A stretch of 64,000 nucleotides of DNA from Xylophilus rhododendri (lineage in GTDB: Bacteria; Pseudomonadota; Gammaproteobacteria; Burkholderiales; Burkholderiaceae_C). The notes under the pieces were generated by a model, which was not told the DNA's origin, ran no database searches, and saw only the letters and a program-made list of their open reading frames with translations. The position numbers and the translations under genes are program-made. Every line of letters begins with the position of its first letter. Position 1 is the stretch's first letter. The DNA is taken from NCBI RefSeq assembly GCF_009906855.1, contig NZ_CP047650.1:4278001-4342000 (forward strand), written 5' to 3'. Positions 5,620 to 39,862 of the stretch are shown piece after piece.

Positions 5620-7827
5620 TCAGAAGTCGAAGGTGGCGCTGAGCACGGCGGTGCGCGGTGCGCCCAGTACCAGGTAGCCGTTGCCGGAGTAGCCGCCGGC
5701 CGAGGCCCAGTAGCTGCGGTCGGCCACGTTGTTGATGCGGCCGCGCAGGGTGACGGCACGGCCCATCACCTCGGTGGTGTAGCGCACGCCCAGGTCCAGG
5801 CGGGTCCAGCCGGGCACCTTCAGGGTGTTGGCGGCGTCGGCGTAGAACTTGCCGGTGGTGATCAGCTGCGAATCGACGGCCAGGCCGCGCACGCCGGGGA
5901 TGGCCCATTCCACGCCGATGTTGGCCTGGGCATCGGGCACGCCGATCACCTTCTTGCCGTTGGTGGCGCCGCCGGCGGTGCTTTCCTGCTTGGCGTCGAG
6001 GAAGGTCACGCCGCCCAGCACCTTCAGGCCGCGCATCGGCTCGCCGAAGGCGGTCAGTTCCACGCCCTGGTGCCTGTCCTCGCCGGCCACGCTGTAGATC
6101 TTGCTGGTCGGGTCCAGGTAGCCGCTGGGCTTCTTGGTGGTGAAGTAGGCCGCGCCGGCGCCGAGGGTGCCGCCGTCGTACTTCACGCCGATCTCCTTCT
6201 GCTTGGAGACATAGGGCGAGAACAGCTGGCCGACGTTGACGGCGGTGCTGGGCGCGGCGGTGGCGGCGGCCAGGCTCTCGATGTAGTTGGCGTAGACCGA
6301 GACGTCCTTGCGCAGCTTCCACACGCCGCCGACCACCGGGGAGGTGCGCGACTTGTCGTAGCTGTCGGTCTGCGCGCCGGTGTTGTAGTTGTAGCCGCGG
6401 GTGTCGATGCTCTGGTGGCGCACGCCCAGGGTGAGCAGCACGGTGTCGTCGAGGAAGGACAGGGTGTCGCCGATGGCGAAGCTGTCGAACTGGTTGCGGG
6501 TGGTGGTCAGCGGGTTGCTCAGCACGCCGCCGGTGAAGCCGGTGGTGGCGGGCATGGCCAGGCCGGGCGCGCTGTAGAGGTTGGTGGCCAGGCCGCCGAT
6601 GGGGCTCCAGGCGTAGGCATTGCGCGAATCGAGGCGGTAGGTGGAGGCCGAGGCGACCAGGGTGTGGCCGACCGCGCCGGTCTGCAGCCTGGCGCGCAGG
6701 CCGGCTTCGGCGCTGTCGACATCGTCCTTGCGGTAGTTGTCGGCGCGGTAGGTGGTGCCGGCGCCGGTGCTGGCGTCGTTCACCGTGAGGTTGGCCAGGG
6801 AGTTGGCTTCGGTGCTGCGGCGTCCGCCGTAGGCGGCCCAGCCGGTGACCTGGGAGTTGAAGTCGTATTCGGCGCGCAGGGTGCCGAAGGTGTCGCGCTC
6901 GTTGGAATAGGACCAGGGCTGCGCCCAGTTGGCGGTGCTGTCGGGGGCGCGCGGGATGCTGGTCAGGCCGACACCCGGCGTGACGTTGGTGCGGGTCTGC
7001 GAGAGCTTGTTGTTCTGGTAGCCGATGTCGGCCGACAGGCGCAGGTCGCGGCTGTGCCAGTCCAGGCCCACGGCGAACACGTCGAGCTTGGCCTGTTCAC
7101 GATCAACGCCGGTGCCGCCTTCGTGGTGGGCCGCGTTCAGGCGCACGCCGGTGGCGCCGTCCGGTCCGAAGCGGCGGGACAGGTCCACGCCCGCGCCCTT
7201 CTGGCCGCCGGTGCCGGTGCTGAGGTTGACCTGGTTGAGGTCCTCGTTGCCGGCACGCTTGGGCATCAGGTTGATGGTGCCGCCGATGCCGCCGCCGCCC
7301 GGGGCCGCGCCGGTCAGGAAGGTGCTGGCGCCGCGCAGCACTTCGACCCGCTCGAACAGCTCGGAGGCCACGTACTGGCGCGGCAGCAGGCTGTAGAGGC
7401 CGTTGTAGGCGATCTCGTCGGAGCCCAGCAGGAAGCCGCGGATGAAGTAGGACTCCTGGAAGTTGCCGAAGCCGCGCGCCACCCGCACCGAGGGATCGTT
7501 CTTCAGCACGTCGGCCACGCTGCGGGCCTGCTGGTTCTGGATCAGCTCGTTGGTGTAGCTGGTGACGGCGAAGGGGGTGTCCATGTAGTCCTGGGTGCCC
7601 AGGAAACCGATGCGGCCGCCGCGCGCCACCTGGCCGCCGGCGTAGGGCTTGCTCAGGCCTTCGGCGGAGGCGTCGGCCGAGGCGTTCACGGTGACGGTCT
7701 GCAGCGTGCCGGTGGTGGACGCGGAGCCGGCGGCGGTCTGGGCTTGGGTGGCGGCGGCGGCCAGCGTCAGGAAGGCGGCGACGGCCAGGGGCGTGAGGGC
7801 GGATGCGGGACGGTTTTGCATGGACAT
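5620..7827 (-). CDS. TonB-dependent siderophore receptor
   Basis: Outer-membrane gated porin that takes up a ferric siderophore using TonB energy. The protein has about 735 residues. A signal peptide ends near AQAQTAAG, around residue 30. A plug domain follows with RGGRIGFLG, SVADVLKNDPSVRV, SYFIRGF and the VLRGASTFLTGAAPGGGGIGG segment. The remainder is a long beta-barrel that ends in ATFDF, a terminal phenylalanine signature for BAM insertion. The ATG at 7827 is chosen because the signal peptide follows directly; an upstream TTG at 7866 would add 13 residues. A Fur-like palindrome lies just upstream. No siderophore biosynthesis genes are present, so it may scavenge foreign siderophores. Confidence 0.93.
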   Translation of the reverse strand: MSMQNRPASALTPLAVAAFLTLAAAATQAQTAAGSASTTGTLQTVTVNASADASAEGLSKPYAGGQVARGGRIGFLGTQDYMDTPFAVTSYTNELIQNQQARSVADVLKNDPSVRVARGFGNFQESYFIRGFLLGSDEIAYNGLYSLLPRQYVASELFERVEVLRGASTFLTGAAPGGGGIGGTINLMPKRAGNEDLNQVNLSTGTGGQKGAGVDLSRRFGPDGATGVRLNAAHHEGGTGVDREQAKLDVFAVGLDWHSRDLRLSADIGYQNNKLSQTRTNVTPGVGLTSIPRAPDSTANWAQPWSYSNERDTFGTLRAEYDFNSQVTGWAAYGGRRSTEANSLANLTVNDASTGAGTTYRADNYRKDDVDSAEAGLRARLQTGAVGHTLVASASTYRLDSRNAYAWSPIGGLATNLYSAPGLAMPATTGFTGGVLSNPLTTTRNQFDSFAIGDTLSFLDDTVLLTLGVRHQSIDTRGYNYNTGAQTDSYDKSRTSPVVGGVWKLRKDVSVYANYIESLAAATAAPSTAVNVGQLFSPYVSKQKEIGVKYDGGTLGAGAAYFTTKKPSGYLDPTSKIYSVAGEDRHQGVELTAFGEPMRGLKVLGGVTFLDAKQESTAGGATNGKKVIGVPDAQANIGVEWAIPGVRGLAVDSQLITTGKFYADAANTLKVPGWTRLDLGVRYTTEVMGRAVTLRGRINNVADRSYWASAGGYSGNGYLVLGAPRTAVLSATFDF

Positions 7828-7862
7828 GATGCGAACAGCTGCTTGTTTTGGAGGAATGGAAC

Positions 7863-7884
7863 GCAAATGAGAACGTGTTGCATT
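7863..7884 (-). promoter_or_regulatory. Candidate Fur box upstream of the siderophore receptor
   Basis: On the plus strand this reads GCAAATGAGAA followed by CGTGTTGCATT. The left half matches the GCAAATGAGAAT half-site seen in Fur-regulated promoters of Burkholderiales, and the right half is a weaker inverted copy. It lies about 36-57 bases before the receptor ATG, a sensible position for iron repression. This is a pattern match only. Confidence 0.5.
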
Positions 7885-8098
7885 CTATAAGTCGAGTTGT
7901 TGCAAACATGCCACTGGCGACCATGAGCGGGCGGCATTTCACGCACTGGATACAGGCGAAAAGGGCGGATCGCGCGTTCATCGGCCGTGGGGCCGGGCTG
8001 CGGCGGTCCTACAGGCAGCCGTCCCGGTGTCCTGCGCCGCGGCCAGGGGCGCGTGCCTAGGGTCTGAACCTTTCGCACATCCCTGGAAGGACTTCTTG

Positions 8099-8683
8099 AT
8101 GAAAAAACTGATTCTGGCCGCCGGCGTCGCCGCCCTGCTGTCCGCCTGTGCCGGCGGCATGGGTTCCAACACCAGTTCGGGCGCCATGGGCTCCGGCGCC
8201 TCCGTGATGGTGGGCGGCGCGGCCATGCTGCCGACCCGCGACATCATCGACAACGCCGTCAATTCCAAGGACCACACCACCCTGGTGGCCGCCGTGAAGC
8301 AGGCCGGTCTGGTGGATACCTTGAAGGGCCCGGGTCCGTTCACCGTGTTCGCACCGACCAACGCGGCCTTCGACCAGCTGCCGCCCGCCACCCTGCAGGC
8401 GCTGATGCAGCCGGTGGGCAAGCCCGCGCTGGTGCGCCTGCTGGGCTACCACGTGGTGCCGGGCCGGCTCGACTCCAACGCGCTGGGCCAGCAGATCCGC
8501 GCCGGCGGCGGCGTGGCCACGCTGAACACCGTGGCCGGCGTGCCGTTGCGGGTGCGCATGGACGGCGCCAACATCGTGCTGCAGGACGCGCAGGGCTTCA
8601 CCGCGACGGTGACCACGCCCAATGTCTACCAGTCCAACGGCGTGATCCACGTGGTCAACCGGGTGCTGATCCCCGGCAACTGA
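8099..8683 (+). CDS. Fasciclin-domain lipoprotein
   Basis: A 194-residue secreted protein. The first residues form a lipoprotein signal peptide with the lipobox LLSAC near residue 18. A Ser/Gly-rich linker follows, and then one fasciclin (FAS1) domain: the TLVAAVKQAGLVDTLKGPG segment, then FTVFAPTNAAFDQLP, then the YHVVPGR and NGVIHVVNRVLIP conserved blocks. FAS1 domains usually mediate adhesion or protein contacts outside the cytoplasm. The ATG at 8099 follows GGAAGGACTTCTTG, a good ribosome site. It converges on the FUSC gene and stands alone as a transcription unit. Confidence 0.93.
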   Translation: MKKLILAAGVAALLSACAGGMGSNTSSGAMGSGASVMVGGAAMLPTRDIIDNAVNSKDHTTLVAAVKQAGLVDTLKGPGPFTVFAPTNAAFDQLPPATLQALMQPVGKPALVRLLGYHVVPGRLDSNALGQQIRAGGGVATLNTVAGVPLRVRMDGANIVLQDAQGFTATVTTPNVYQSNGVIHVVNRVLIPGN

Positions 8684-8696
8684 AGCCCGCGGGCTG

Positions 8697-10916
8697 TCAG
8701 CCGCGCGCCTTGCCGGGCGCCGGCTGGACCAGGCGGGCGACCGCCTTCTGCAGCAGCGGCAGCTGCCGGCTGACCAGCGCCAGCTGCGCGGAGGCGACGG
8801 CGTCTTCCTGCTGCTCCAGCGATTCCGCCAAGGCCAGCGCCTCCTCCTCGGCCTGGGGCGAGAGCAGGCCCGCATCCTTGTCGCGCAAGGCCTGCGCCAG
8901 CCGGTTCATCTGCGCCGCCAGCTGTTCCGATACTTCCCCGAAGCGCGCCTGCCCGGCCGCTCCCCCGCCTTCGCCCCGATGGGCGCCCAGTGCCGACACA
9001 TAGTTGAGCAGCGTGTGCGACTGCACCAGGAAACGGATGCCCGCATCGATGCCGCCGCGTGTCAGGCCAGGCTCCTGCAGCACATGGGAGACGGCGGTGG
9101 AGAGCGCCGCATCGGCATCGTGCGCATTGCGCCGCGCCACCCGGTAGGCCAGGTCATCGCGTTTGCCGGCGCCGATCTGCGCGGCGATGGCCTGCAGGTA
9201 GCGCGCGGCGGTCGTCAGCGCCAGCGCGGCGGCGGGCCGCAGCCGGCGGGCGCGCCAGTCGGGCAGGATGCCGATCACCGCGACCGAGGCGATCAGCGCG
9301 CCCAGCAGGGTGTCGATCATGCGCGGCACGATCAGGGCGGCGCCGTCGCTGGTCTGGTTGTTGCCCAGCAGCACGACCAGGGTGACGGCGGCGGTGGCGA
9401 AGCCGTAGCGGGTCTTGTTGAAGGCGAAGAACACCATGCCGGCCGCCACCGCGATCGCCGCCTGCACCAGCAGGTCGGGAAACAGCCGCAGCACGGCCCA
9501 GCCGGCGATCAGCCCACAGAAGGTACCGATCACCCGCTGCAGCACCCGCTTGCGGGTGGCTCCGTAGCTGGGCTGGCAGACGAAGAGGGTGGTCAGCAAC
9601 ACCCAGTAGCCGTGGTCGGCATGCATGAAGCTCAGCACGCAGAAGGCGGCGGCCAGGGCCAGCGCCAGCCGCACGGCATGGCGGAAGACCGGCGCCTGCA
9701 GCCGCAGCTGGCCGCGCACCCTGGCGAAGACCTCGCCCAGCGTGCGCGGGGTGGAGTCGAACAGCGTCTCGCCCAGGCTCACCGGCTCGGGCCGGCCGGC
9801 GCTGGCCAGCTGCAGGTCGAGGGCCGAGAGGTTCTGCTGCAGTGCGCGCAGCGAGCGCAGCTGGCGCGCACGGCGGTTGGCCGGGGTGGCGGCGGTCTCG
9901 CAGGGCTGGGTCTGTTCCAGGTGGTCGAGCGCGCCCTGCAGGTCGTCCAGGGCCAGGGCGCTGGCGCCGTCGTCGGCATGGTCGCGTTTCAGGCGGATCG
10001 CCTCGGCCACGTCGGCGCAGGCGCTGCCCTGCAGGGCCAGGGTGCGCTGGCAGCGGAACATCACGTCGCTGTGATAGAAGGCGTCGGTCAGCTCGGCGTA
10101 ACCCACGTGGGAGGAGCTGGCGCGCTCATGCACGTCCTGGGCGATGAAGTACTGGGCCAGCAGCAGCCGGCTTTCCTGCTTGCCGATGTCGGGCGGCACG
10201 CCGGTGCGTGGATCGACCGGCGGCAGGCGGCGCAGCAGCGCGTCCTTGGCCAGGTTGAGCGCCTGCACCACGTCCACGTTGCGGTGGGCCAGGGCGATGC
10301 GGCGGCGTTCGATGTCCACCCCGCGCACCGGCTCGAACATCGACGCCTTGAGCCACAGGTACTGGCCCAGCGTGTCGTACACCTGGGCGATGCGCCGGCG
10401 CACCGGCTGCAGCGCGAAGACCGCCGCCCAGCCCACCGACAGCACGCTGTACGCCGCCGCGCCCGCCATCAGCAGGCCGACCTGCAGCCAGCGCGACTCG
10501 TCGCCATGGTGTTCCCGCCCGGTGGCGCTGTAGACCGACAGCACCAGGGTGGACCAGGCGATGGCCCGGTAGCGCTCGCTGATGGCGCTCAGCAGGGTCA
10601 GCGCGAAGGCCGCGGCGCAGAGCAGTCCGGCGAACAGCCAGTGCCGGTCGAACACCCATTGCACGGTGGAGGCCGCCACCAGGAAGCAGACCAGGGTGGC
10701 GATGACGGTGCGCAGCCGGCCGCGCCAGCCGTCGTCGGTATCGCCGATGCCGCTGGCGATCACGCCCAGGAACATCGGCATCACATAGTCGAGGCGGTTG
10801 TAGTGCCAGCAGGCCGCCATGATGGCGGCGAGCACGATGCCCACACGTGCACTCATCACGGCGGCATCCTGGGTCCACAGGCGTTGGAGGAACGTGTGGG
10901 GGGCGGAGCGGAACAT
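8697..10916 (-). CDS. FUSC-family inner membrane transporter (YccS/YhfK-like)
   Basis: A 739-residue integral membrane protein with the two-halves layout of the FUSC / aromatic-acid exporter family. The N-terminal half has about six hydrophobic segments, from VGIVLAAIMAACW to the region around residue 170. A long soluble cytoplasmic domain follows. A second membrane cluster near residues 400-530 includes LALALAAAFCVLSFM and GYWVLLTTLFVCQPSYGAT, the latter close to the FUSC signature, and the C-terminus is helical. The substrate is unknown; relatives export aromatic acids or take part in fusaric acid resistance. It follows glyA and nrdR on the same strand, 55 bases after nrdR. Confidence 0.88.
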   Translation of the reverse strand: MFRSAPHTFLQRLWTQDAAVMSARVGIVLAAIMAACWHYNRLDYVMPMFLGVIASGIGDTDDGWRGRLRTVIATLVCFLVAASTVQWVFDRHWLFAGLLCAAAFALTLLSAISERYRAIAWSTLVLSVYSATGREHHGDESRWLQVGLLMAGAAAYSVLSVGWAAVFALQPVRRRIAQVYDTLGQYLWLKASMFEPVRGVDIERRRIALAHRNVDVVQALNLAKDALLRRLPPVDPRTGVPPDIGKQESRLLLAQYFIAQDVHERASSSHVGYAELTDAFYHSDVMFRCQRTLALQGSACADVAEAIRLKRDHADDGASALALDDLQGALDHLEQTQPCETAATPANRRARQLRSLRALQQNLSALDLQLASAGRPEPVSLGETLFDSTPRTLGEVFARVRGQLRLQAPVFRHAVRLALALAAAFCVLSFMHADHGYWVLLTTLFVCQPSYGATRKRVLQRVIGTFCGLIAGWAVLRLFPDLLVQAAIAVAAGMVFFAFNKTRYGFATAAVTLVVLLGNNQTSDGAALIVPRMIDTLLGALIASVAVIGILPDWRARRLRPAAALALTTAARYLQAIAAQIGAGKRDDLAYRVARRNAHDADAALSTAVSHVLQEPGLTRGGIDAGIRFLVQSHTLLNYVSALGAHRGEGGGAAGQARFGEVSEQLAAQMNRLAQALRDKDAGLLSPQAEEEALALAESLEQQEDAVASAQLALVSRQLPLLQKAVARLVQPAPGKARG

Positions 10917-20963: not shown

Positions 20964-21518
20964 TCAGACGCGCTTACGGTATTCGCCGGTGCGGGTGTCG
21001 ATTTCGATGCGGTCGCCTTGCGCGACGAACAGCGGCACCGGGATTTCGAAGCCGGTGGAGATCTTGGCGGGCTTCAACACCTTGCCGGACGTGTCGCCCT
21101 TGACGGCGGGTTCGGTCCAGGTGATCTCGCGCTCGACGCTGGTCGGCAGTTCCACCGAGATGGCCTTGCCGTCGTAGAACACCACTTCGACGGCCATGCC
21201 GTCTTCGAGGTAGTTCAGCGCGTCGCCCATGTTCTCGGCTTCGACTTCGTACTGGTTGAACTCGGTGTCCATGCAGACGTACATCGGATCGGCGAAGTAG
21301 GAGTAGGTGCACTCCTTCTTGTCCAGCACGATCTGGTCGATCTTGTCGTCGGCCTTGAAGACCACTTCGGTGTTGAAGTTGGCGATCAGGCTCTTCAACT
21401 TCATGCGCACGGTGGCGCTGTTGCGGCCGCCGCGGCTGTACTCGGTCTTCAGGACGACCATCGGATCCTTGCCGTGCATGATCACGTTGCCGGCGCGGAT
21501 TTCTTGAGCGATTTTCAT
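20964..21518 (-). CDS. efp: Elongation factor P, EarP-type (Arg32)
   Basis: EF-P binds between the P and E sites of stalled ribosomes and stimulates peptide bonds at polyproline stretches. The 184-residue protein begins [13 protein letters not shown] and has the three-domain EF-P layout. The tip loop reads SRGGRNSA, which places arginine, not lysine, at residue 32. Arg32 is the site rhamnosylated by EarP in betaproteobacteria and Pseudomonas. The earP gene is in this window but about 17 kb away. The ATG at 21516-21518 is chosen by homology; the open frame before it is noise. Confidence 0.97.
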
Positions 21519-21721
21519 AAAAGGCTTGTCTGGTGGTTGGCCGCGGGGCGCGGCGGGCCCTGGGTAACGGTTGCGGACGACGGCCGCGCGGATTGCGCAA
21601 AACCTCATCCGAACAGCGGGCGGTCGATTTCGAAAAGCCTACGATTTTAGCGTGCCTTCACGACCCCGGGGCATTTGAGGCAGACTTGCCGGCGTTTTCC
21701 GATGTTTCGCAGGGTGTGAAT

Positions 21722-22507
21722 TTGTCTTCCAACGTCAACGCAAAAATCGCCGCCGCTCTTGTCGAGGCGCGCCGCTCGGGCATTCCGGCCGACGACGGCA
21801 TCTGGTCCCAGACGGCTTTGTCCCAGGTGACCCAGGACGATATCTACCAGATCCACGACCGCGTCGCGGCCGAACTGGGCTGGACGCAGGACCCCGCCGC
21901 GCCCAGCCACTGGAAGGGCGGCGGCCCGGGCCCCGGCTCGGTGGCCGCCTTCTCGCTGCTGCCCCCACCCTGGGTGCGGCCCGCGCCCGGCCCCTTCCGC
22001 GCGCAGGACTTCAAGCGCCTGGCCATCGAGATCGAAGTCGCCTTCCGCCTGGCCCGCGACGTGGAGGCGGTGGACCTGGCCTCGCGCAGCGCGCACGACC
22101 CGGCCGCCTTCCTCGACGCCATGGCCGTCTCCATCGAACTGGTGGATTTCCGCTGGGCCAACACCGACCAGGCACCGGCCGCGCTGCGCAACGCGGACCT
22201 GCAATCCAACGGCGCGCTGGTGGTCGGCGACTGGGTGCCCATGCGTTCGGTGGACTGGTCGCAGCAGGTCGCCACGCTGGAGATCGACGGCGCGCCGGCC
22301 GGCCGCTGGCAGGGCAGCCATGCCGCGGGCGATCCGCTGTGGTTCGCGCCGCAGTGGCTGGAGCATGCGGTGCAGCGCCATGGCCGCCTGGCCGAGGGCA
22401 GCGTGCTGACCACCGGCTCCTGGTGCGGCATGGTCTGGCTGCCGGGCCGCGCCGAGGTGAAGGCGGTGTTCGAAGGGATCGGCGAAGCGCGCCTGACCCT
22501 GGTCTGA
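21722..22507 (+). CDS. Fumarylacetoacetate hydrolase / 2-keto-4-pentenoate hydratase family protein
   Basis: A 261-residue member of the FAH / MhpD-like fold. Seen are the helical N-terminal part, the segment PFRAQDFKRLAIEIEVAFRL with the acidic Glu pair that binds metal in this family, the SIELVDFRW block, SNGALVVGDW, and the C-terminal LPGRAEVKAVFEGIGEARLTL. It probably acts on a 2-keto or beta-diketo acid, but the substrate is not evident. The start is uncertain: TTG at 21722 has AGGG seven bases before it, while GTG at 21716 is too close to that site. The gene is divergent from efp and its stop lies next to the glycosyltransferase stop. Confidence 0.75.
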   Translation: MSSNVNAKIAAALVEARRSGIPADDGIWSQTALSQVTQDDIYQIHDRVAAELGWTQDPAAPSHWKGGGPGPGSVAAFSLLPPPWVRPAPGPFRAQDFKRLAIEIEVAFRLARDVEAVDLASRSAHDPAAFLDAMAVSIELVDFRWANTDQAPAALRNADLQSNGALVVGDWVPMRSVDWSQQVATLEIDGAPAGRWQGSHAAGDPLWFAPQWLEHAVQRHGRLAEGSVLTTGSWCGMVWLPGRAEVKAVFEGIGEARLTLV

Positions 22508-22508
22508 A

Positions 22509-23762
22509 TCAGGCGGCCGGCCGCGCCAGGCCGCCGAACTCGGCTTCGGCGCTGCGCTCGGCGGCGGTGATGACGCCGTGCAGCACGCCCTCGAAGCGGG
22601 CCAGCACGCCGTCCCAGCCCAGCGCCTGGGCGGTGGCGAAGGCGGCCCGGCCCAGGCGCTGGCGCTGCTCGGCATCGCCGGCCAGCAAACGCGAGGCGGC
22701 CACGAAGGCATCGACATCGCCCGCTGCAGCCAGCAGGCCGTTGTGGCCGCTGTGCACCAGCTGCGCGGCGGCGGCGTGGTCGAAGGCCACCAGCGGCAGG
22801 CCGCTGGCCATGGCCTCGGTGGTGACGTTGCCGAAGGTCTCGGTGAGGCTGGGGAACAGGAACAGGTCGACCGAGGCGTAGTGCGCCGCCAGGTCCTCGC
22901 CGCGCCGCTGGCCGGCGAAGAGGGCGTCCGGGCAGCGCGCCTGCAGCTCGGCGCGCATGGGGCCGTCGCCCACCAGCAGCAGGAGGGCGCGCGGCATGTC
23001 CCGCCTCAGGGCTTCGAAGGCGGTGAGCAGGGTGCCCAGGTTCTTTTCCTGCGCCAGCCGGCCGACATAGCCGACCAGCAGGTCCTGTTCGTTCAGCCCC
23101 CACGATTCACGCAGCGCGGCGCTGCGGCGCGAGGGATGGAAGAGCTCCGTATCGACCCCGCGGCTGACCACCGTCAGCTTCTGGAAGCCGTCGGCCTGCA
23201 GCTCGCGCCGCAGCGCATCGGTGGGCACCATGGTGCAGGCGCAGCGGTTATGGAACTTGCGCAGGTAACCCATGATGGGTTTGCGCAGCCAGCCCAGCCC
23301 GTAGTGGGTGCTGTAGGCGTGGAAATTGGTGCGGAAATCCGAGCACACCGGCAGCTTCAAATGCAGCGCGGCCTGCAGCGCCGACCAGCCCAGCGCGCCT
23401 TCGGTGGCGATGTGCACCACGTCCGGCCGGCGGCGCGACCACAGCTGCACCAGCGCGCGTTTGGAAGGCACACCCATGCGCAGGTCCGGGTAGCGCGGGA
23501 TCGGCAGGCTGCGCAGCAGCACCTCGTCGTAGCGGGCCTGGCGCGCGGCGGCGTCGAGCCGGTCCTGGCGCGGGCGGATCAGCTGCACCTCGTGGTGGCG
23601 CGCATGCATGCCCTGCACGATGCGGGCGACGGTGGTGGCCACGCCGTTGACTTCGGGCGGATAGGTCTCGCTCACGAAGGCGATGCGCAGGCTGCGCTGC
23701 GCCGCGGGGAAGTGGTCGATGAGGAGGCCGTCGGATGCGAGGGCGTGGGGCATGGCCTGCAT
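22509..23762 (-). CDS. GT4-family glycosyltransferase
   Basis: A retaining glycosyltransferase of GT-B fold, about 417 residues. The N-terminal Rossmann half begins LRIAFVSETYPPEVNGVA, the typical start of MgtA-like and mannosyltransferase-like members, and continues with VVHIATEGALGWSALQAA and FRTNFHAYSTHYG. The C-terminal donor half has GYVGRLAQEKNL, VGDGPMRAEL and the ETFGNVTTEAMASGLPLVAFD motif with the E-x7-E element. It probably moves a sugar to a lipid acceptor. PlcP-like phosphatases often occur with GT4 lipid glycosyltransferases, and one lies 6 kb away here. The start is uncertain: ATGs at 23762, 23753 and 23852 are all in frame and none has a clear ribosome site. Confidence 0.85.
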   Translation of the reverse strand: MQAMPHALASDGLLIDHFPAAQRSLRIAFVSETYPPEVNGVATTVARIVQGMHARHHEVQLIRPRQDRLDAAARQARYDEVLLRSLPIPRYPDLRMGVPSKRALVQLWSRRRPDVVHIATEGALGWSALQAALHLKLPVCSDFRTNFHAYSTHYGLGWLRKPIMGYLRKFHNRCACTMVPTDALRRELQADGFQKLTVVSRGVDTELFHPSRRSAALRESWGLNEQDLLVGYVGRLAQEKNLGTLLTAFEALRRDMPRALLLLVGDGPMRAELQARCPDALFAGQRRGEDLAAHYASVDLFLFPSLTETFGNVTTEAMASGLPLVAFDHAAAAQLVHSGHNGLLAAAGDVDAFVAASRLLAGDAEQRQRLGRAAFATAQALGWDGVLARFEGVLHGVITAAERSAEAEFGGLARPAA

Positions 23763-23904
23763 GCTGAACGGCTTGTGCAACAGATTGGTGACACCGCACT
23801 GCATGAACCGACACGCGGCCGTCACGGCTTTTTCATGCGTGCTGGCCATCATCCCGTCACGCCGGCCACGCCGGCCGGCGGCCCAACCATCACAGAGGTG
23901 CGCC

Positions 23905-24531
23905 GTGAAAGATTTCCTGCAGACCGTCGAGGTCCAGCGCTGGGACGACCATCGCTTCTATCACCACAGCCGGATCAACCAGAGCCTGCACTTCCTGAGT
24001 GCCGTCTGTTTCGTGATCGCCTACGGCATGCTTTTCGTAGAGCCCGCCTGGGCCGCGCTGCTGGCCTGGGGTGTGTCGATGACGACACGCCAGGCCGGCC
24101 ATTTCTTCTTCGAGCCGCGCGGCTACGACCATGTCAACGACGCCAGCGATGCGCACAAGGAAGCCATCAAGGTGGGCTACAACATCCGCCGCAAGATCGT
24201 GCTGTTGGCGGTGTGGGCGGCCATTCCGGTGCTGCTGTGGCTGCAGCCCTCGGTCTTCGGCCTGATCGAGCCGTCCACCGACTTCATGGGCTATGCGCAC
24301 GACCTGGGCATCGCCTGGCTGGCGCTGGGCGCGGGCGGGCTGGTGTTCCGGGTGCTGCAGCTGTGCTTCACCCAGAGCGTGATGACCGGCCTGGCCTGGG
24401 GCTACAAGATCATCACCGACCCCTTCCACGACATCAAGATGTACCACCGCGCGCCCCTGTGGCTGCTGCGTGGGCAGCTGATCGACCCGATGGACCATGT
24501 GTCGCATGCCACGCATGCGCGGCATGGCTGA
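23905..24531 (+). CDS. Small membrane protein, Mpo1/DUF962-like
   Basis: A 208-residue protein with about four hydrophobic segments (near residues 31-50, 51-64, 95-115 and 130-150). Conserved-looking polar motifs lie at the membrane edges: HHSRINQSLHFL before the first segment and RQAGHFFFEPRGYDH after the second. This layout, with a histidine/asparagine motif, then two helices, then a GH-x2-FE motif, resembles Mpo1/DUF962 proteins, iron-dependent enzymes that remove a carbon from 2-hydroxy fatty acids in yeast. The match is by eye and weak. The GTG at 23905 follows GAGGTGCGCC, a good ribosome site. The gene is divergent from the GT4 gene and converges on the aminotransferase. Confidence 0.65.
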   Translation: MKDFLQTVEVQRWDDHRFYHHSRINQSLHFLSAVCFVIAYGMLFVEPAWAALLAWGVSMTTRQAGHFFFEPRGYDHVNDASDAHKEAIKVGYNIRRKIVLLAVWAAIPVLLWLQPSVFGLIEPSTDFMGYAHDLGIAWLALGAGGLVFRVLQLCFTQSVMTGLAWGYKIITDPFHDIKMYHRAPLWLLRGQLIDPMDHVSHATHARHG

Positions 24532-24541
24532 GGCTTTTTCT

Positions 24542-26191
24542 TCAGAAGATCTCGCCGAGCATCTCGCGCAGCAACTTGCGGCGGATGCCGCGGTTGCTGG
24601 ACTGCCCGTCCTGCCACCACCAGCCGTCCTCCTGCATGCGGGTGGCGGCGGCGACGAAACGCTGCAGCACGGCTTCGAAGTCTTCGTCGCGGTAGTTCAG
24701 GCTGAAGATCAGCCGGCCGGTGCCGACCCAGCTCAGGGCCAGGCCCTGCTCGCGCAGGTAGTACTGCAGCATCCAGTTGTAGCGCGAGGGGGCGGTGTAG
24801 AGCACGGTCCAGACGCTGGACATGTTCGCCACCTGCAGCGGCAGGCCGGCCGCCTGCATCGCCTGGTTGAAGCGCGTGGCGCGCGCGTCCCAGCGCTCGT
24901 CCAGGCCTTGGTAGACGGCCTGGATCTCCGGGCGCTGCAGCCGGTCGAGGAAGGCCTTCATCGCACCCATCACATAGGGGTGGGCGTTGAAGGTGCCGCG
25001 GGCGAAGCAGATGTCGGCCGGGCGGTTCTCGCGGTAGCGCTTCATCAGCGTGGCGCAGCCGCAGACCACGCCCACCGGCAGGCCGCCGCCCAGTGTCTTG
25101 CCGTAGGTGACCATGTCGGCCTGCACGCCGAAATATTCCTGCGCGCCGCCGGCCGCCAGCCGGAAACCCAGGAAGACCTCGTCGAAGATCAGCACGATGC
25201 CGCGCTCGGTGCACACGGCACGCAGGCGCTTCAACCAGTCGGTGTAGGCCGCGCGGTCGAAGCCGGCGCGGCGGCTGCTGTCGAGCAGGGCCGAGTCGCC
25301 CGGCGCGCCGATGTTGGGATGCAGGGCCTGCAGCGGATTGACCAGCACGCAGGCGATGTCGCGCCGGGTGCGCAGCACCTGCAGGCTGCGTTCGGACATG
25401 TCCTGCAGCGTGTAGGTCTCGCGCGGCGGCAGCGGGTTGCCGGGGCCGGGCTGCACGTCCTCCCACCAGCCGTGGTAGGCGCCGCAGAAGCGCACCAGGT
25501 GCTTGCGCCGGGTGTGATACCGGGCCAGGCGCACGGCCTGCATCACCGCCTCGGTGCCGGACATGTGGAAGGACACCTCGTCCAGGCCGGACAGGGCCTT
25601 GAGCCGCTCCACGTTCTCCAGCACGCAGGGGTGCAGCATGCCCAGCACGGGGCCGAGCGGCTGGGCGGTCCGGGCGCCTTCGGCGATGCACTCGCGGTAG
25701 AAGTCCACGCCGAAGACGTTGACGCCGTAGGAGCCGGTCAGGTCGTAGAAACGCTGGCCGTCTAGGTCTTCCACCATCACGCCGCTGGAAGCCGACACGA
25801 AGCTGCTGCTGGGCAGGTGCTGGCGCAGGTAGGGGCTGTACTGGAAGGGCACGCGGTAGCTGCCGGTGAACTGCAGGTCCGAGATGCCGGCGCGCGCCTC
25901 GCGTGTCATCGCGATGCTCTTCTTGTGGCGTTCGCCCAGCACGGCCGACAGCCGGCCCAGGCCCTGGCGGCGCAGCTGCTGCACATCGGCCGGTGCGTCG
26001 TCGGAGGCGAAGAAGCCCTGTTCGTCATAGGCATAGCCCGGAATCCAGCAGGCCAGGCGCTTGGCCATGCGCGAATGGCCGCCCAGCGAGCGGTGCTTGG
26101 CCTGCGACAGCTGCAGCCGCCGATGCGCGGCCGGCAGGGTCCAGGCCAGCGCGGCCAGGGCGACGGCGGAAAGCGCGAATGTTTCGTTCAT
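24542..26191 (-). CDS. Membrane-anchored class III aminotransferase
   Basis: A 549-residue PLP enzyme of the class III (ornithine / glutamate-1-semialdehyde) aminotransferase group. One N-terminal hydrophobic helix (FALSAVALAALAWTLPA, near residues 5-21) suggests a membrane anchor, and about 100 more residues precede the fold. Motifs are SGTEAVMQAVRLAR for cofactor phosphate, GAYHGWWEDV, LIFDEVFLGFRLA with the cofactor-contacting aspartate, and TYGKTLGGG with the PLP lysine near residue 364. The substrate is unknown. The anchor and the neighbouring lipid genes suggest a lipid-linked keto or amino group. The ATG at 26191 is divergent from psd, with 60 bases between the two starts. Confidence 0.85.
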   Translation of the reverse strand: MNETFALSAVALAALAWTLPAAHRRLQLSQAKHRSLGGHSRMAKRLACWIPGYAYDEQGFFASDDAPADVQQLRRQGLGRLSAVLGERHKKSIAMTREARAGISDLQFTGSYRVPFQYSPYLRQHLPSSSFVSASSGVMVEDLDGQRFYDLTGSYGVNVFGVDFYRECIAEGARTAQPLGPVLGMLHPCVLENVERLKALSGLDEVSFHMSGTEAVMQAVRLARYHTRRKHLVRFCGAYHGWWEDVQPGPGNPLPPRETYTLQDMSERSLQVLRTRRDIACVLVNPLQALHPNIGAPGDSALLDSSRRAGFDRAAYTDWLKRLRAVCTERGIVLIFDEVFLGFRLAAGGAQEYFGVQADMVTYGKTLGGGLPVGVVCGCATLMKRYRENRPADICFARGTFNAHPYVMGAMKAFLDRLQRPEIQAVYQGLDERWDARATRFNQAMQAAGLPLQVANMSSVWTVLYTAPSRYNWMLQYYLREQGLALSWVGTGRLIFSLNYRDEDFEAVLQRFVAAATRMQEDGWWWQDGQSSNRGIRRKLLREMLGEIF

Positions 26192-26251
26192 GGATGCGGC
26201 TTTTTGAGAGTGGCATCCGACATGTACCAAAGCTGATTGACAGGCTCGTGA

Positions 26252-27181
26252 ATGAAAGCTCTCCAGAAGATTCTTCAGCAGGAAGACCTCAACTTCCTGC
26301 TCACCAACCGGGTGCCCCGGCTGCTGCTGACCCGCTGGATGGGCTGGTTCAGCCAGATCCGCAATCCGCTGGTCTGCCGGGTGTCGATCGCGGTGTGGCG
26401 CGTGTTCGCCCAGCTCGACCTGAGCGATGCGAAGCGGCGGGACTTCGCCAGCCTGCACGAATGCTTCACCCGCGAACTGAAGCCCGGTGCCCGGCCGATC
26501 GTGCCGGACCCGGATGTGCTCAGCAGCCCCTGCGACGCCATCGTCGGCGCCTGCGGTGCGGTGGAGGGCCGGCAGGTCTTCCAGGCCAAGGGCTTTCCGT
26601 ATGCGATGCAGGACCTGTTCGGTGCCAGCCAGGACAGCCGTGTCTTCGAGGACGGCGTCTTCATCACCCTGCGGCTGACGTCCAGCATGTACCACCGCTT
26701 CCACGCGCCGGCCGATTGCCGGGTCGATCATGTGACCTTCATCCACGGCGACACCTGGAACGTCAACCCCATCGCCCTGGCCCGGGTGGAGCGCCTCTTC
26801 TGCCGCAACGAACGCGCCGTGCTGCGCGCCCGCACCACCCGCGGCGGCCATCCCCTGGCCATCGTGCCGGTGGCCGCCATCCTGGTGGCCAGCCTGCGCC
26901 TGCATTTCACCGACCTGCTGCTGCACCAGCGCTACCGCGGGCCCAACGAGATCCCCTGCGACGCCGCCTTCACCAAGGGCCAGGAGATGGGCTGGTTCCA
27001 GCACGGCTCCACCATCATCGTGTTCGCGCCGCGCGGCTTCGAGCTGTGCGAGGGCATCGCGCCCGGCACCCAGGTCCGAATGGGCCAGGCCCTGCTGAAG
27101 ATGCCCGTGTCCGCGGATGACAGTGTCATGGCCGGGTCATCCACGCAGGCAATGCTGGCCGTCCATGAGGCGCAAGCTTGA
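26252..27181 (+). CDS. psd: Phosphatidylserine decarboxylase
   Basis: Converts phosphatidylserine to phosphatidylethanolamine at the inner membrane, using a pyruvoyl group made by self-cleavage. The protein has 309 residues. Seen are FASLHECFTRELKPGARPI, the SSPCDAIVGACG segment, MYHRFHAP with the catalytic histidine region, IHGDTWNVNP, and near the C-terminus HGST (residues 251-254), where Ser253 should become the pyruvoyl. The usual form of this motif is LGST, so the first position differs. The ATG at 26252 opens the gene. Its last 17 bases overlap the downstream glycosyltransferase, which implies coupled translation. Confidence 0.95.
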   Translation: MKALQKILQQEDLNFLLTNRVPRLLLTRWMGWFSQIRNPLVCRVSIAVWRVFAQLDLSDAKRRDFASLHECFTRELKPGARPIVPDPDVLSSPCDAIVGACGAVEGRQVFQAKGFPYAMQDLFGASQDSRVFEDGVFITLRLTSSMYHRFHAPADCRVDHVTFIHGDTWNVNPIALARVERLFCRNERAVLRARTTRGGHPLAIVPVAAILVASLRLHFTDLLLHQRYRGPNEIPCDAAFTKGQEMGWFQHGSTIIVFAPRGFELCEGIAPGTQVRMGQALLKMPVSADDSVMAGSSTQAMLAVHEAQA

Positions 27182-28337
27182 GCTGATCTATTTCGACGCC
27201 GGTGGCGGCCATCGCGCCGCCGCCCATGCCCTGCAGGAAGTCATCCGGCAGCAGCAGCGGCCCTGGGACCTGGAGCTGGTCAACCTCTTCGAGGTGCTGG
27301 ACCCGCAAGGCATGTTCCGCAAGCTCACCGGCGCCGCGCCCGAGGCCTACTACAACCGCCGCCTGGCGCGCGGCTGGACGGTGGGGCTGGCCCAGGAGCT
27401 GCGGGTGCTGCAGGGGCTGATCCGGCTCTTCCACACCTCGCTGGTCACCCGCCTGCAGCGGCACTGGGACACGCATAGGCCGGACCTGGTCGTCTCGCTC
27501 ATCCCCAACTTCAACCGGGCCCTGTTCGAGGCCGCGCAGAGCCGCCTGCCGGGCGTGCCCTATGTGACGGTGCTGACCGACATGGCCGACCATCCGCCGC
27601 ATTTCTGGATCGAGCCGGGCCAGCGCCAGCACATCGTCTGCGGCACCGCGCGGGCGCTGGCCCAGGCGCGTGCGGCGGGCTATGAGGATGAACAACTCTC
27701 GCTGACCTCCGGCATGCTGCTGCGGCCCTCCTTCTACGCACCCCGCTTGGCCGACCGCAGCGCCGCCATGCTGGCGCTGGGGCTGGATCCGGCGCAACCC
27801 ACCGGCATCGTGATGTTCGGCGGCCAGGGCTCCATGCAGATGCTGCGCATCGCCCGCGAGCTGGGCGACCGCCAGCTGATCCTGATGTGCGGCCACAACC
27901 AGGCCCTGGCCGAGCGCCTGCGGGCGCAGCCCTCGGAGGCGCCGCATGCGGTGGTCGGCTTCACCCAGGACGTGGCGCGCCATCTGCAGCTGGCCGACTA
28001 CTTCATCGGCAAGCCCGGCCCCGGCAGCCTGAGCGAGGCGCTGCAGCAGGGCCTGCCGGTGATCACCCTCTCGGGCGCGGCGATCATGCCGCAGGAGCGC
28101 TACAACGTGGTGTGGCTGACACAGGCCGGCTTCGGCCTGGCGCTGCCCTCCTGGCGCGAAGTGGCGCGCGGCGTGGCCGAGATGGTGGATCACCTGCCGG
28201 TGTTCCAGGCCCGGGTGCGGCGCTACGACAACCGCGCGATCTTCGAGGTGCCCGAGATCTTCGCCGCGCTGATGGCGCATGCGCGCTCGCCGGCCGGCCC
28301 TGCCGAACGCTGGCTGGACGCGGCGCTGGTCGCCTGA
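27165..28337 (+). CDS. MGDG-synthase-like (GT28) lipid glycosyltransferase
   Basis: A 390-residue GT-B enzyme that resembles monogalactosyl- or glucosyl-diacylglycerol synthases. The N-terminal domain starts with YFDAGGGHRAAAHAL, the diacylglycerol-binding signature of this group, and continues with LVVSLIPNFNRALFEA and LTDMADHPPHFW. The C-terminal donor domain has VMFGGQGSMQML and FIGKPGPGSLSEALQQGLPVI, a GT28 nucleotide-sugar motif. It most likely adds a hexose to diacylglycerol at the inner face of the membrane. It overlaps the end of psd by 17 bases. The ATG at 27165 is chosen because the glycine-rich loop begins 12 residues later. Confidence 0.88.
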   Translation: MRRKLELIYFDAGGGHRAAAHALQEVIRQQQRPWDLELVNLFEVLDPQGMFRKLTGAAPEAYYNRRLARGWTVGLAQELRVLQGLIRLFHTSLVTRLQRHWDTHRPDLVVSLIPNFNRALFEAAQSRLPGVPYVTVLTDMADHPPHFWIEPGQRQHIVCGTARALAQARAAGYEDEQLSLTSGMLLRPSFYAPRLADRSAAMLALGLDPAQPTGIVMFGGQGSMQMLRIARELGDRQLILMCGHNQALAERLRAQPSEAPHAVVGFTQDVARHLQLADYFIGKPGPGSLSEALQQGLPVITLSGAAIMPQERYNVVWLTQAGFGLALPSWREVARGVAEMVDHLPVFQARVRRYDNRAIFEVPEIFAALMAHARSPAGPAERWLDAALVA

Positions 28338-28352
28338 AACGCCGCCGGACCT

Positions 28353-29186
28353 TCAGGCCGCGACCGAGATTTCTTCCTCGCTCTCCTGCTCGACCGGTGT
28401 GGCCTTGCGGCGCTTGACCTTGTGCTGCAGCCGCGCGCTGAAGTCCAGGATCTCCAGCCGGCCGTCCGCATGCTCGACCAGGGCGGTGAGGCTCTCCACC
28501 CAGTCGCCGTCGTTGCAGTAGAGGATGCCGTCGATCTCGCGCATCTCCGCATGGTGGATATGGCCGCAGACGACACCCTGCACGCCGCGCTTGCGGGCCT
28601 CGCGGGCGACGGCCACCTCGAAGTCGCCCACGTAGCTGACGGCGCGCTTGACCTTGAGTTTGAGGTAGCCCGACAGGCTCCAGTAGGGCAGGCCCATGCG
28701 GGCGCGCAGGCGGTTGAAGTGGCGGTTGACCTTGAGGGTGAACTCGTAGGCCGAGTCGCCCACATAGGCCAGCCACTTGGCGCATTGGATCACGCCGTCG
28801 AACAGGTCGCCGTGGGTGATCCAGAGCTTGCGGCCGTCGGCGGTGGTGTGGATGCAATCCTCCACCACATCGACGCCGCCGAAGTTGTGCGCCACGTAGT
28901 GCCGCGCGAATTCGTCGTGGTTGCCCGGCACGAAGACCACACGGGTGCCCTTGCGCGCCTTGCGCAGCAGCTTCTGCACCACGTCGTTGTGCGACTGCGG
29001 CCAGTACCAGGTGCGGCGCAGCTGCCAGCCGTCGATGATGTCGCCGACCAGGTAGAGCGTCTCGCACTCCACGTCGCGCAGGAAGTCCAGCAGCGCATGG
29101 GCCTGGCAGCCGGGCGTGCCCAAGTGCAGGTCGGAAATCCAGACGGTTCGCACCGTGATGGGGGCTTGGGCGTCGGTGTTTTCCAT
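28353..29186 (-). CDS. PlcP-like metallophosphatase (LpxH-related)
   Basis: A 277-residue calcineurin-like phosphoesterase. The metal motifs are intact: SDLHLGTPGCQA, VGDIIDGW, PGNHDE, THGD and GHIHHAE. The wider pattern RRTWYWPQSHNDVVQKLLRK, GLPYWSLSGYLK and CNDGDWVESL matches the phospholipase-C-like PlcP of Sinorhizobium better than true LpxH. PlcP splits phosphatidylcholine or phosphatidylethanolamine to diacylglycerol under phosphate starvation. It converges on the MGDG-synthase-like gene with 15 bases between stops, which supports a pathway in which freed diacylglycerol is glycosylated. A UDP-2,3-diacylglucosamine hydrolase role cannot be excluded from sequence alone. Confidence 0.85.
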   Translation of the reverse strand: MENTDAQAPITVRTVWISDLHLGTPGCQAHALLDFLRDVECETLYLVGDIIDGWQLRRTWYWPQSHNDVVQKLLRKARKGTRVVFVPGNHDEFARHYVAHNFGGVDVVEDCIHTTADGRKLWITHGDLFDGVIQCAKWLAYVGDSAYEFTLKVNRHFNRLRARMGLPYWSLSGYLKLKVKRAVSYVGDFEVAVAREARKRGVQGVVCGHIHHAEMREIDGILYCNDGDWVESLTALVEHADGRLEILDFSARLQHKVKRRKATPVEQESEEEISVAA

Positions 29187-38791: not shown

Positions 38792-39862
38792 TCAGCGCGC
38801 GGCGGCGATGGTGGCGACGAAGGCGCGCAGTTGGGTTAGCAGATCGGGCTGCTGTTGCAGGGCATCGTGTGCCGCGTGCAGGGCGTGGCGCCATTCGGCC
38901 AGGGCCGTGCCGTCGGGCGCTTGCGGCGGCTCGGCGGAGATGTCGTTCCAGGCGAGCATGAACCGGCGCAGCGATGGCGGTGCCGCGATGCGGTCCAGGA
39001 AGGCGCCCAGCTTGTCGTGGTGGGCGTCGTCGTCCTGCGGATAGATCTGCCAGGCCAGGGGCGCGCCGGCCCAGAGGGCGCGGACCAGGGAGTCCTCGCC
39101 GCGTACCAGATTGAGGTCGCAGGACCAGAGCAGTTCGTCGAAGGCGGTCTGCGGCAGGGGCGGCAGGTAGTCGATGCGCAGCGCGCCGGTGTGCGGGGGC
39201 AGGGCGGCGCGCACGGCCTGGGTCGCGCGGCCGGGGGTGACCAGCAGGCGGGTGGGCTGCTCTGCCGAGGCCCATTGCGCCAGCAGCGCGGCCAGGCCTT
39301 TCGGTTCGTAGCAGAACAGCGAGACCAGGCGCTCGCCCTGCCAGGCGATGCCCCGGGCGGCCAGCCAGGCGGCGCGGTCGAAGGCCTGCAGGCGCCGGGC
39401 CAGGTCGTCCTCCCGCAGCAGGCCGCCGGTGGCGGGCGTGAAGCCGGGGTAGAAGAAATGCTTGGTCAGGCCGGCGCCCGGGCCGTTGAAGACGGGGGAG
39501 GGCAGGCGGTGCATGCGCTCCACATAACTTTCGGCGGACAGGTATTCGAGGTTGATCCAGGGGCGCGGGCCGGTGCCGGCGGCGAAGTGGGCGACCAGGG
39601 CGGGCTCCGGATCGCAGCCGAAGGCCTCGACCAGCACATCGGGCGGCGGCGCCAGCACGGCGGCCTGGACGGCCGCAGGATCCGACCAGTCGACCACCGT
39701 CACGCCCGCCACCCCGCCCGGCGCCATCCAGGCCAGCGCGGCGCCGTCGTCCACCCAGAGCCGGGCCTCGTCACCGGCCCGCGCCAGCTGCGCGGCCAGG
39801 CGCCAGCAGACGCCCAGATCGCCATGGTTGTCGATGACCTTGCAGAAGATGTCCCAGCGCAT
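38792..39862 (-). CDS. earP: EF-P arginine rhamnosyltransferase EarP
   Basis: Transfers rhamnose from dTDP-rhamnose to Arg32 of EF-P, which activates the factor. The 356-residue protein begins MRWDIFCKVIDNHGDLGVCWRL, the conserved EarP start with the catalytic aspartate, and contains EAFGCDPE, WINLEYLSAE and FYPGFTPATGGLLRE. Near the C-terminus NLVRGEDSLVRALWAGAPLAWQIYPQ binds the donor nucleotide. It is divergent from uvrC with 46 bases between the starts. In many betaproteobacteria earP sits directly beside efp; here about 17 kb of other genes separate them. Confidence 0.95.
   Translation of the reverse strand: MRWDIFCKVIDNHGDLGVCWRLAAQLARAGDEARLWVDDGAALAWMAPGGVAGVTVVDWSDPAAVQAAVLAPPPDVLVEAFGCDPEPALVAHFAAGTGPRPWINLEYLSAESYVERMHRLPSPVFNGPGAGLTKHFFYPGFTPATGGLLREDDLARRLQAFDRAAWLAARGIAWQGERLVSLFCYEPKGLAALLAQWASAEQPTRLLVTPGRATQAVRAALPPHTGALRIDYLPPLPQTAFDELLWSCDLNLVRGEDSLVRALWAGAPLAWQIYPQDDDAHHDKLGAFLDRIAAPPSLRRFMLAWNDISAEPPQAPDGTALAEWRHALHAAHDALQQQPDLLTQLRAFVATIAAAR

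Follow-up and report, generated by a model that had tools for sequence, protein, structure and literature searches.

The stretch of DNA analysed here, referred to as the window, comprises 64,000 nucleotides of the Xylophilus rhododendri genome (G000:C1:4278001-4342000, where G000 is the window's own genome) and carries a group of six genes with links to lipid metabolism. All six reading frames listed in the first-pass annotation are present at the positions given there. By contrast, its placement of the group between efp and earP holds only loosely, because an FAA-hydrolase-like gene separates efp (20964-21518) from the first gene of the group and earP (38816-39856) lies 9.6 kb beyond the last one.

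The first gene (22509..23852, minus strand) encodes a GT4-family glycosyltransferase, probably acting on a lipid (DAG or PG), which matches PF13692, PF00534 and PF13439 over the cut-offs; its best NCBIfam model, GlcN-PG synthase, scored 150 bits, below the cut-off of 480. The true start of this protein is possibly internal to the ORF. The adjacent gene (about 23905..24531, plus strand), which neighbours the GT4 gene in relatives as well, encodes a multi-helix membrane protein related to PF06127 and hereafter called Mpo1-like (22.5 bits, cut-off 24). It is followed by a gene for a class III PLP aminotransferase (AT; about 24542..26191, minus strand; PF00202, 109.8 bits, cut-off 30.5), in which residues 4-22 are hydrophobic and constitute a putative N-terminal membrane anchor, and the catalytic lysine lies in the motif YGKTLGG. 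Psd-H (26252..27181, plus strand; PF02666, 184.6 bits, cut-off 22) is the second phosphatidylserine decarboxylase of the genome and carries an HGST cleavage motif. The next gene (about 27165..28337, plus strand) overlaps psd by 17 bases, as previously proposed, provided that its predicted start is right. Its product is an accessory glycosyltransferase of the MGDG-synthase/UgtP superfamily; formal membership in the MGDG synthase family PF06925 was rejected (23.5 bits, gathering cut-off 25), and the score against PRK13609 was 61.6 bits (cut-off 500). The last gene (28353..29186, minus strand) encodes a PlcP-like phosphoesterase of the calcineurin type, which matches PF12850 and PF00149 over the cut-offs and scores below the cut-offs of the LpxH models. 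Among the best 25 matches listed, no NCBIfam model was over its cut-off for the AT, GT4, MGDG-like or PlcP-like proteins.

A core of three genes

Relatives of the AT were found in 11 of 369 genomes of the same class (E<=1e-60), and in 25 of 398 genomes of the phylum and 22 of 200 genomes of the order (E<=1e-70). Together, the three draws yielded 53 different AT-positive genomes, the window's own included. A scan of the genome collection confirmed 575 loci, the best 80 of which were used; these are mostly from Burkholderiales (Rubrivivax, Paucibacter, Roseateles, Limnohabitans, Polaromonas, Curvibacter, Hydrogenophaga and others). Neighbours were counted in the 53 of these 80 loci in which the AT gene is flanked by 5 kb or more in both directions. 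Of a second set of 30 loci (L095-L104 and L150-L169), 23 had flanks of this length; L170-L183 and L207 were left out of the neighbour counts. The frequencies come from kin genomes and thus describe patterns rather than independent trials.

Within 5 kb of the AT gene, psd and the Mpo1-like gene were present in all 53 loci and the GT4 gene in 52, followed by genes for an MFS transporter (36/53), a UDP-glucose dehydrogenase-like protein (17/53), PlcP (15/53) and the MGDG-like protein (8/53). The transporter is LplT, based on the one protein scanned (NCBIfam, 487 bits, cut-off 297). In the second set, the Mpo1-like gene was found in 23/23 loci, psd in 21/23, GT4 in 13/23, and PlcP and a large glycosyltransferase fusion (described below) in 4/23 each. 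The association of psd and the Mpo1-like gene with AT exceeds that expected by chance, and Psd-H, AT and the Mpo1-like protein form the near-invariant core of the locus. The neighbourhood in related genomes anticipated by the first-pass annotation holds for these partners, and PlcP and the MGDG-like gene are only intermittent members of it. Rather than one six-gene unit, the core consists of three genes, or four with GT4 in Burkholderiales; the six-gene set is a local version, since the MGDG-like gene occurs in 8, and together with PlcP in 6, of the best 80 of 575 loci.

Among the 200 genomes of the order, the Mpo1-like profile matched 23, including 22/22 AT-positive ones, as judged by comparing genome handles. 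The 23rd (G798, locus L207) contains psd, GT4, a shortened Mpo1-like match of 144 residues and only a 126-residue AT remnant, and its cluster adjoins phoU-, phoX- and pst-like genes. In L103 and L104, AT and the Mpo1-like domain, in this order, are fused in a single ORF of 738-742 residues. These two loci are without a cluster psd, and the fusion gene adjoins plcP-, BtaB- and BtaA-like genes; BtaA (PF11899) was matched in the L103 locus and in both genomes. In L171, plcP, btaA and btaB are grouped together at a distance of a few kb from the triad. Two further loci, L168 and L169, have the triad without an adjoining glycosyltransferase match. In 11/11 loci from genomes outside the window's class (L150-L160), which are probably alphaproteobacterial, the Mpo1-like gene adjoins a gene for a PmtA-like methyltransferase (151 bits, below the model cut-off of 390).

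The designation of the fourth gene as a phosphatidylserine decarboxylase stands at the level of the PF02666 family; it is not a generic psd but falls in a clade of its own, and it comes on top of a housekeeping gene. Like other Psds, Psd-H has the catalytic D/H/H/S residues and the self-cleaving GST motif. PF02666 was found in 53/53 AT-positive genomes, with at least 2 matches in 49 of them (the exceptions being G085, G480, G091 and G314) and two copies in the window's genome. The cleavage motif is HGST in 100 of 101 cluster Psds and QGST in the remaining one, whereas none of the 21 other Psds compared has HGST: they carry LGST, MGST, FGSS or GGST, or the pattern is unmatched. In a tree of 28 cluster Psds, hand-chosen from the 101, and the 21 others, the cluster Psds were split off by a branch with 99/99 support, with the bootstrap unsettled and two of the other sequences on long branches. 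The separate clade and the HGST motif, in place of LGST or MGST, set Psd-H apart from the housekeeping type. Residues D95, H148, H151 and S253, which we take to be catalytic, are invariant in the alignment of cluster Psds, and Psd-H is therefore likely to be a decarboxylase; its substrate may differ from that of other Psds.

The nearest solved structures to the AT are the AMT domain of MycA and, next, GSAM (HemL), with which it shares the fold and the PLP-binding lysine. Unlike these proteins, the AT is stand-alone and putatively membrane-anchored. Identity with GSAM was rejected (TIGR00713, 165.8 bits against a cut-off of 527.3), a true HemL being encoded elsewhere in the genome (589 bits), as was that with a MycA-type AMT domain of a PKS/NRPS beside an ACP, the AT ORF carrying the aminotransferase family alone. 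The Mpo1-like protein was likewise not accepted as a formal member of PF06127 (22.3-22.5 bits, gathering cut-off 24; a relative in L102 reached 23.3 bits), and it is longer than the model. Nevertheless, D15, H16, H20, N25, Q26, H29, R62, Q63, G65, H66, E70, D75, K85 and E86 are among the columns invariant in 47 Mpo1-like sequences, and they fit the His-rich pattern of yeast Mpo1 (H...N...H and QxGHxxxE-type). Its structure was modelled with a pLDDT of 90.9, and comparison of the model with the PDB yielded no convincing fold match or solved relative.

Proposed phosphate regulation and PlcP

PlcP-Agt renovation swaps phospholipids for glycolipids. At the level of protein families, the window's locus resembles the systems of this type in Pseudomonas aeruginosa (PA3218/PA3219/PA0842), Methylosinus and roseobacters through its calcineurin-type, PlcP-like phosphoesterase and its GT4; relatives of the window add Pho-box-like promoters. 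Pho-box-like direct repeats matching at least 11 of 14 positions were present in 53 of 73 divergent intergenic regions between GT4 and the Mpo1-like gene, compared with 11 of 71 other divergent intergenic regions of the same loci; the edges of the former regions were set by tblastn matches, so that some coding bases are possibly included. The best site faces GT4 in some loci and the Mpo1-like gene in others, and L150-L152 have sites with 13-14 of 14 matches upstream of GT4. A box signal between AT and Psd-H was discounted, as it sits at or beside the psd start. The best site of the window itself (23777..23794, minus strand, toward GT4) is degenerate, with 10/14 positions, and is not significant alone; a scan of the whole window with the Pho-box pattern was not above chance. 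Regulation in the window's genome is thus predicted from the relatives. The window site resembles the stronger sites of L027 and L077.

In seven loci, mostly from Limnohabitans, among the best 80 of 575 searched, a run of phoR, phoB, phoU and pst lies beside the cluster (PhoR was matched by profile for L052 and the remaining genes were named by eye). Of the 47 loci from the same 80 with 8 kb of room, 9 have pstB-like, 9 phoR-like, 8 phoB-like, 6 phoU, 5 ppk and 4 phoX genes; loci with Pho-regulon neighbours are a minority.

PlcP homologues were found in 42/53 AT-positive genomes and in 22/48 AT-negative genomes, the latter being hand-picked, non-randomly, from the listed negatives. Of the 11 AT-positive genomes lacking PlcP, 9 encode a protein of about 900 residues, the C-terminal half of which is a GT4. 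Among the 80 genomes tested for this fusion, these 9 alone have it; it was not found in the 42 AT-positive genomes with PlcP, in G864 and G876, or in 27 of the 48 AT-negative genomes (24 of the 27 without PlcP). The N-terminal half contains HxH, TNHN and DDH motifs and yielded no PHP or other informative profile match. Hence, one or the other enzyme is present in 51/53 AT-positive genomes, the exceptions being G864 and G876. Together with the promoters and the minority of phoBR, phoU, pst, ppk and phoX neighbours in relatives, this pattern supports the suggested phosphate-starvation setting of the PlcP type, and the gene set probably helps to swap phosphate-containing membrane lipids for others under phosphate shortage.

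A proposed role of the triad

Psd-H, AT and the Mpo1-like protein are additional to the PlcP systems described in the available portions of PMC8528852 and PMC9239053, in line with the claim that the latter two are an addition to such systems; the main text of PMC9239053 mentions neither an aminotransferase nor a decarboxylase. On balance, we favour the reading that this is a PlcP-type membrane-renovation locus for phosphate starvation in which the triad makes an amine-bearing lipid beside the glycolipid, with a chemistry proposed by analogy. This reading rests on the co-conservation of the triad and its Psd clade of its own, on the AT-Mpo1 fusion, on the presence of either PlcP or the glycosyltransferase fusion in nearly all AT-positive genomes, and on the Pho-box-like sites in relatives. 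Judging from the known families, the PlcP-like enzyme would strip the phosphate headgroup off PE/PC-type lipids, and GT4, along with the MGDG-like enzyme in the window's lineage, would glycosylate the resulting diacylglycerol. The three enzymes of the triad would act jointly, their substrate being a lipid headgroup that is membrane-bound and carries a carboxyl group: the Mpo1-like protein, as a putative iron-type oxygenase, would convert a 2-hydroxy-acid-like group to an oxo-acid, the anchored AT would turn the resulting carbonyl into an amino acid, and Psd-H, the pyruvoyl chemistry of which requires an amino acid, would decarboxylate it to a primary amine, which the PmtA-like enzyme may N-methylate in loci of the other class. 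The succession of hydroxy-acid, oxo-acid, amino-acid, amine and N-methyl amine would be the simplest chemistry using every conserved enzyme. The pathway would end in a lipid that bears an amine or quaternary amine and replaces PE/PC, alongside a neutral or acidic glycolipid. The earlier proposal of PE as the starting lipid is not supported. N-methyltransferase logic is shared with the BtaA/BtaB pathway for the betaine lipid DGTS, the genes of which lie near the triad or its fused form in the three loci mentioned above; BtaA itself had no match in the window's genome and was found in 6/53 AT-positive genomes, with 4 strong matches.

The main ordinary rival, which we consider unlikely, invokes no new lipid: Psd-H and the PmtA-like enzyme would only turn PS into PE and methylated PE for PlcP, while AT (for example, of an ethanolamine-phosphate lyase type) and the Mpo1-like protein would recycle the released headgroup, the output being DAG, glycolipid and phosphate. 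It accords with the catalytic residues retained by Psd-H, the frequent LplT neighbour, and the available part of a review (PMC3972451), according to which PlcP acts on PE, MMPE and PC and the enzymes releasing phosphate from phosphoalcohols, or recycling headgroups, are unknown. Yet the triad genes are bound more tightly to each other than to PlcP, most AT-positive genomes have a further Psd besides one of the distinct clade, and the AT is putatively anchored and, among solved structures, closest to MycA AMT and GSAM.

Less probable is that GT4 attaches a glucuronosyl or glucosyl residue to a lipid and that this sugar is oxidized by the Mpo1-like protein and aminated by AT, with Psd-H doing a separate job. 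The near-constant GT4 and the UDP-glucose 6-dehydrogenase-like gene of some loci would fit, as would the use of UDP-glucuronate by Agt2 (PMC8528852, available part). However, the conserved partner Psd-H is left unexplained, no homologue of UDP-glucose 6-dehydrogenase (Ugd) was matched in the window, and L168 and L169 do without an adjoining glycosyltransferase. MycA AMT acts on a beta-keto acyl substrate and yeast Mpo1 on a 2-hydroxy fatty acid; in the least probable of the three rivals, AT and its Mpo1-like partner would likewise modify fatty-acyl chains bearing keto or hydroxy groups, and Psd-H would finish the headgroup of the resulting amino-acyl or sphingoid-like lipid. A likeness between families is not enough to assign the substrate, and no acyltransferase, ACP or PKS was recognized among the recurrent neighbours, mostly judged by eye.

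Several observations count against our preferred reading of an amine-bearing lipid: PlcP lies within 5 kb in only 15/53 and 4/23 loci, and GT4 in 13/23 of the second set; G864 and G876 have neither PlcP nor the fusion; the fusion loci L102 and L161-L165 have no strong Pho box (best 11/14); the window's own site, its whole-window scan and the minority of Pho-regulon neighbours are as given above; the Mpo1-like protein has neither formal family membership nor a fold match; the order of substrates is drawn from chemical analogy; and AT is patchy, with no relative (E<=1e-70) in the same-genus genome G557.

In its broadest form, which we advance only tentatively, the preferred reading implies that at least two proteobacterial classes share an undescribed triad pathway, induced by phosphate starvation and in some including the PmtA-like enzyme, to an analogue of PE/PC that contains no phosphorus and is of the amino or choline type. 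In lineages without PlcP, its place would be taken by the glycosyltransferase fusion, the N-terminal half of which would be a putative metal phosphoesterase domain. Ornithine, glutamine and betaine lipids are known amine-bearing stand-ins for phospholipids, and the triad co-conserved across Proteobacteria points to another lipid of this kind, or to a route for headgroup recycling.

A glycosyltransferase fusion and the distribution of PlcP

In the L102 locus, a GT4 glycosyltransferase forms the C-terminal half of a protein of approximately 900 residues (L102:10843-13545), which has relatives in L161-L165. The N-terminal half carries invariant HxH, TNHN and DDH motifs and had no informative match in Pfam. 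Among the 80 genomes tested, this fusion protein was confined to those in which the calcineurin-type phosphoesterase PlcP was not found.

A shortened cluster and doubtful record titles

In L207, from the small genome G798, the cluster (about 6755-9832) retains psd and GT4, together with a shortened Mpo1-like match and a class III aminotransferase (AT) reduced to a 126-residue stretch, an apparent case of AT decay. Genes resembling phoU, phoX and pst lie nearby. Three public MAG records are titled Bordetella parapertussis (L045 and L062) and Akkermansia muciniphila (L055); these titles look doubtful because the clusters resemble those of Burkholderiales and the match positions and identities of L055 are those of L052 (Limnohabitans sp. 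Rim28).

Genes adjoining the clusters

In the window, a gene resembling FAA hydrolases/hydratases (21533-22507) separates efp from the GT4 gene, and its end adjoins that of the GT4 gene. The listed ORF starts within the efp reading frame, in the upstream portion of that frame, which runs on the opposite strand. A trio encoding DUF3419 (related to the DGTS betaine-lipid enzyme BtaA), a haem-oxygenase-like iron enzyme and a GNAT protein adjoins the psd of the psd-AT-Mpo1 triad in L170 (13323-15973); in the L174 genome, trio (5671-8161) and triad occupy separate contigs. A conserved, hydrolase-looking ORF (L103:11057-12016 and L104:7503-8240) flanks the single ORF in which AT is fused to the Mpo1-like domain. 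Searches of Pfam and NCBIfam returned no match for the L103 protein. Judged by eye, the conserved ORF, with its DFDGFLINSYAL motif, appears HAD-like, and its product is a candidate phosphatase.
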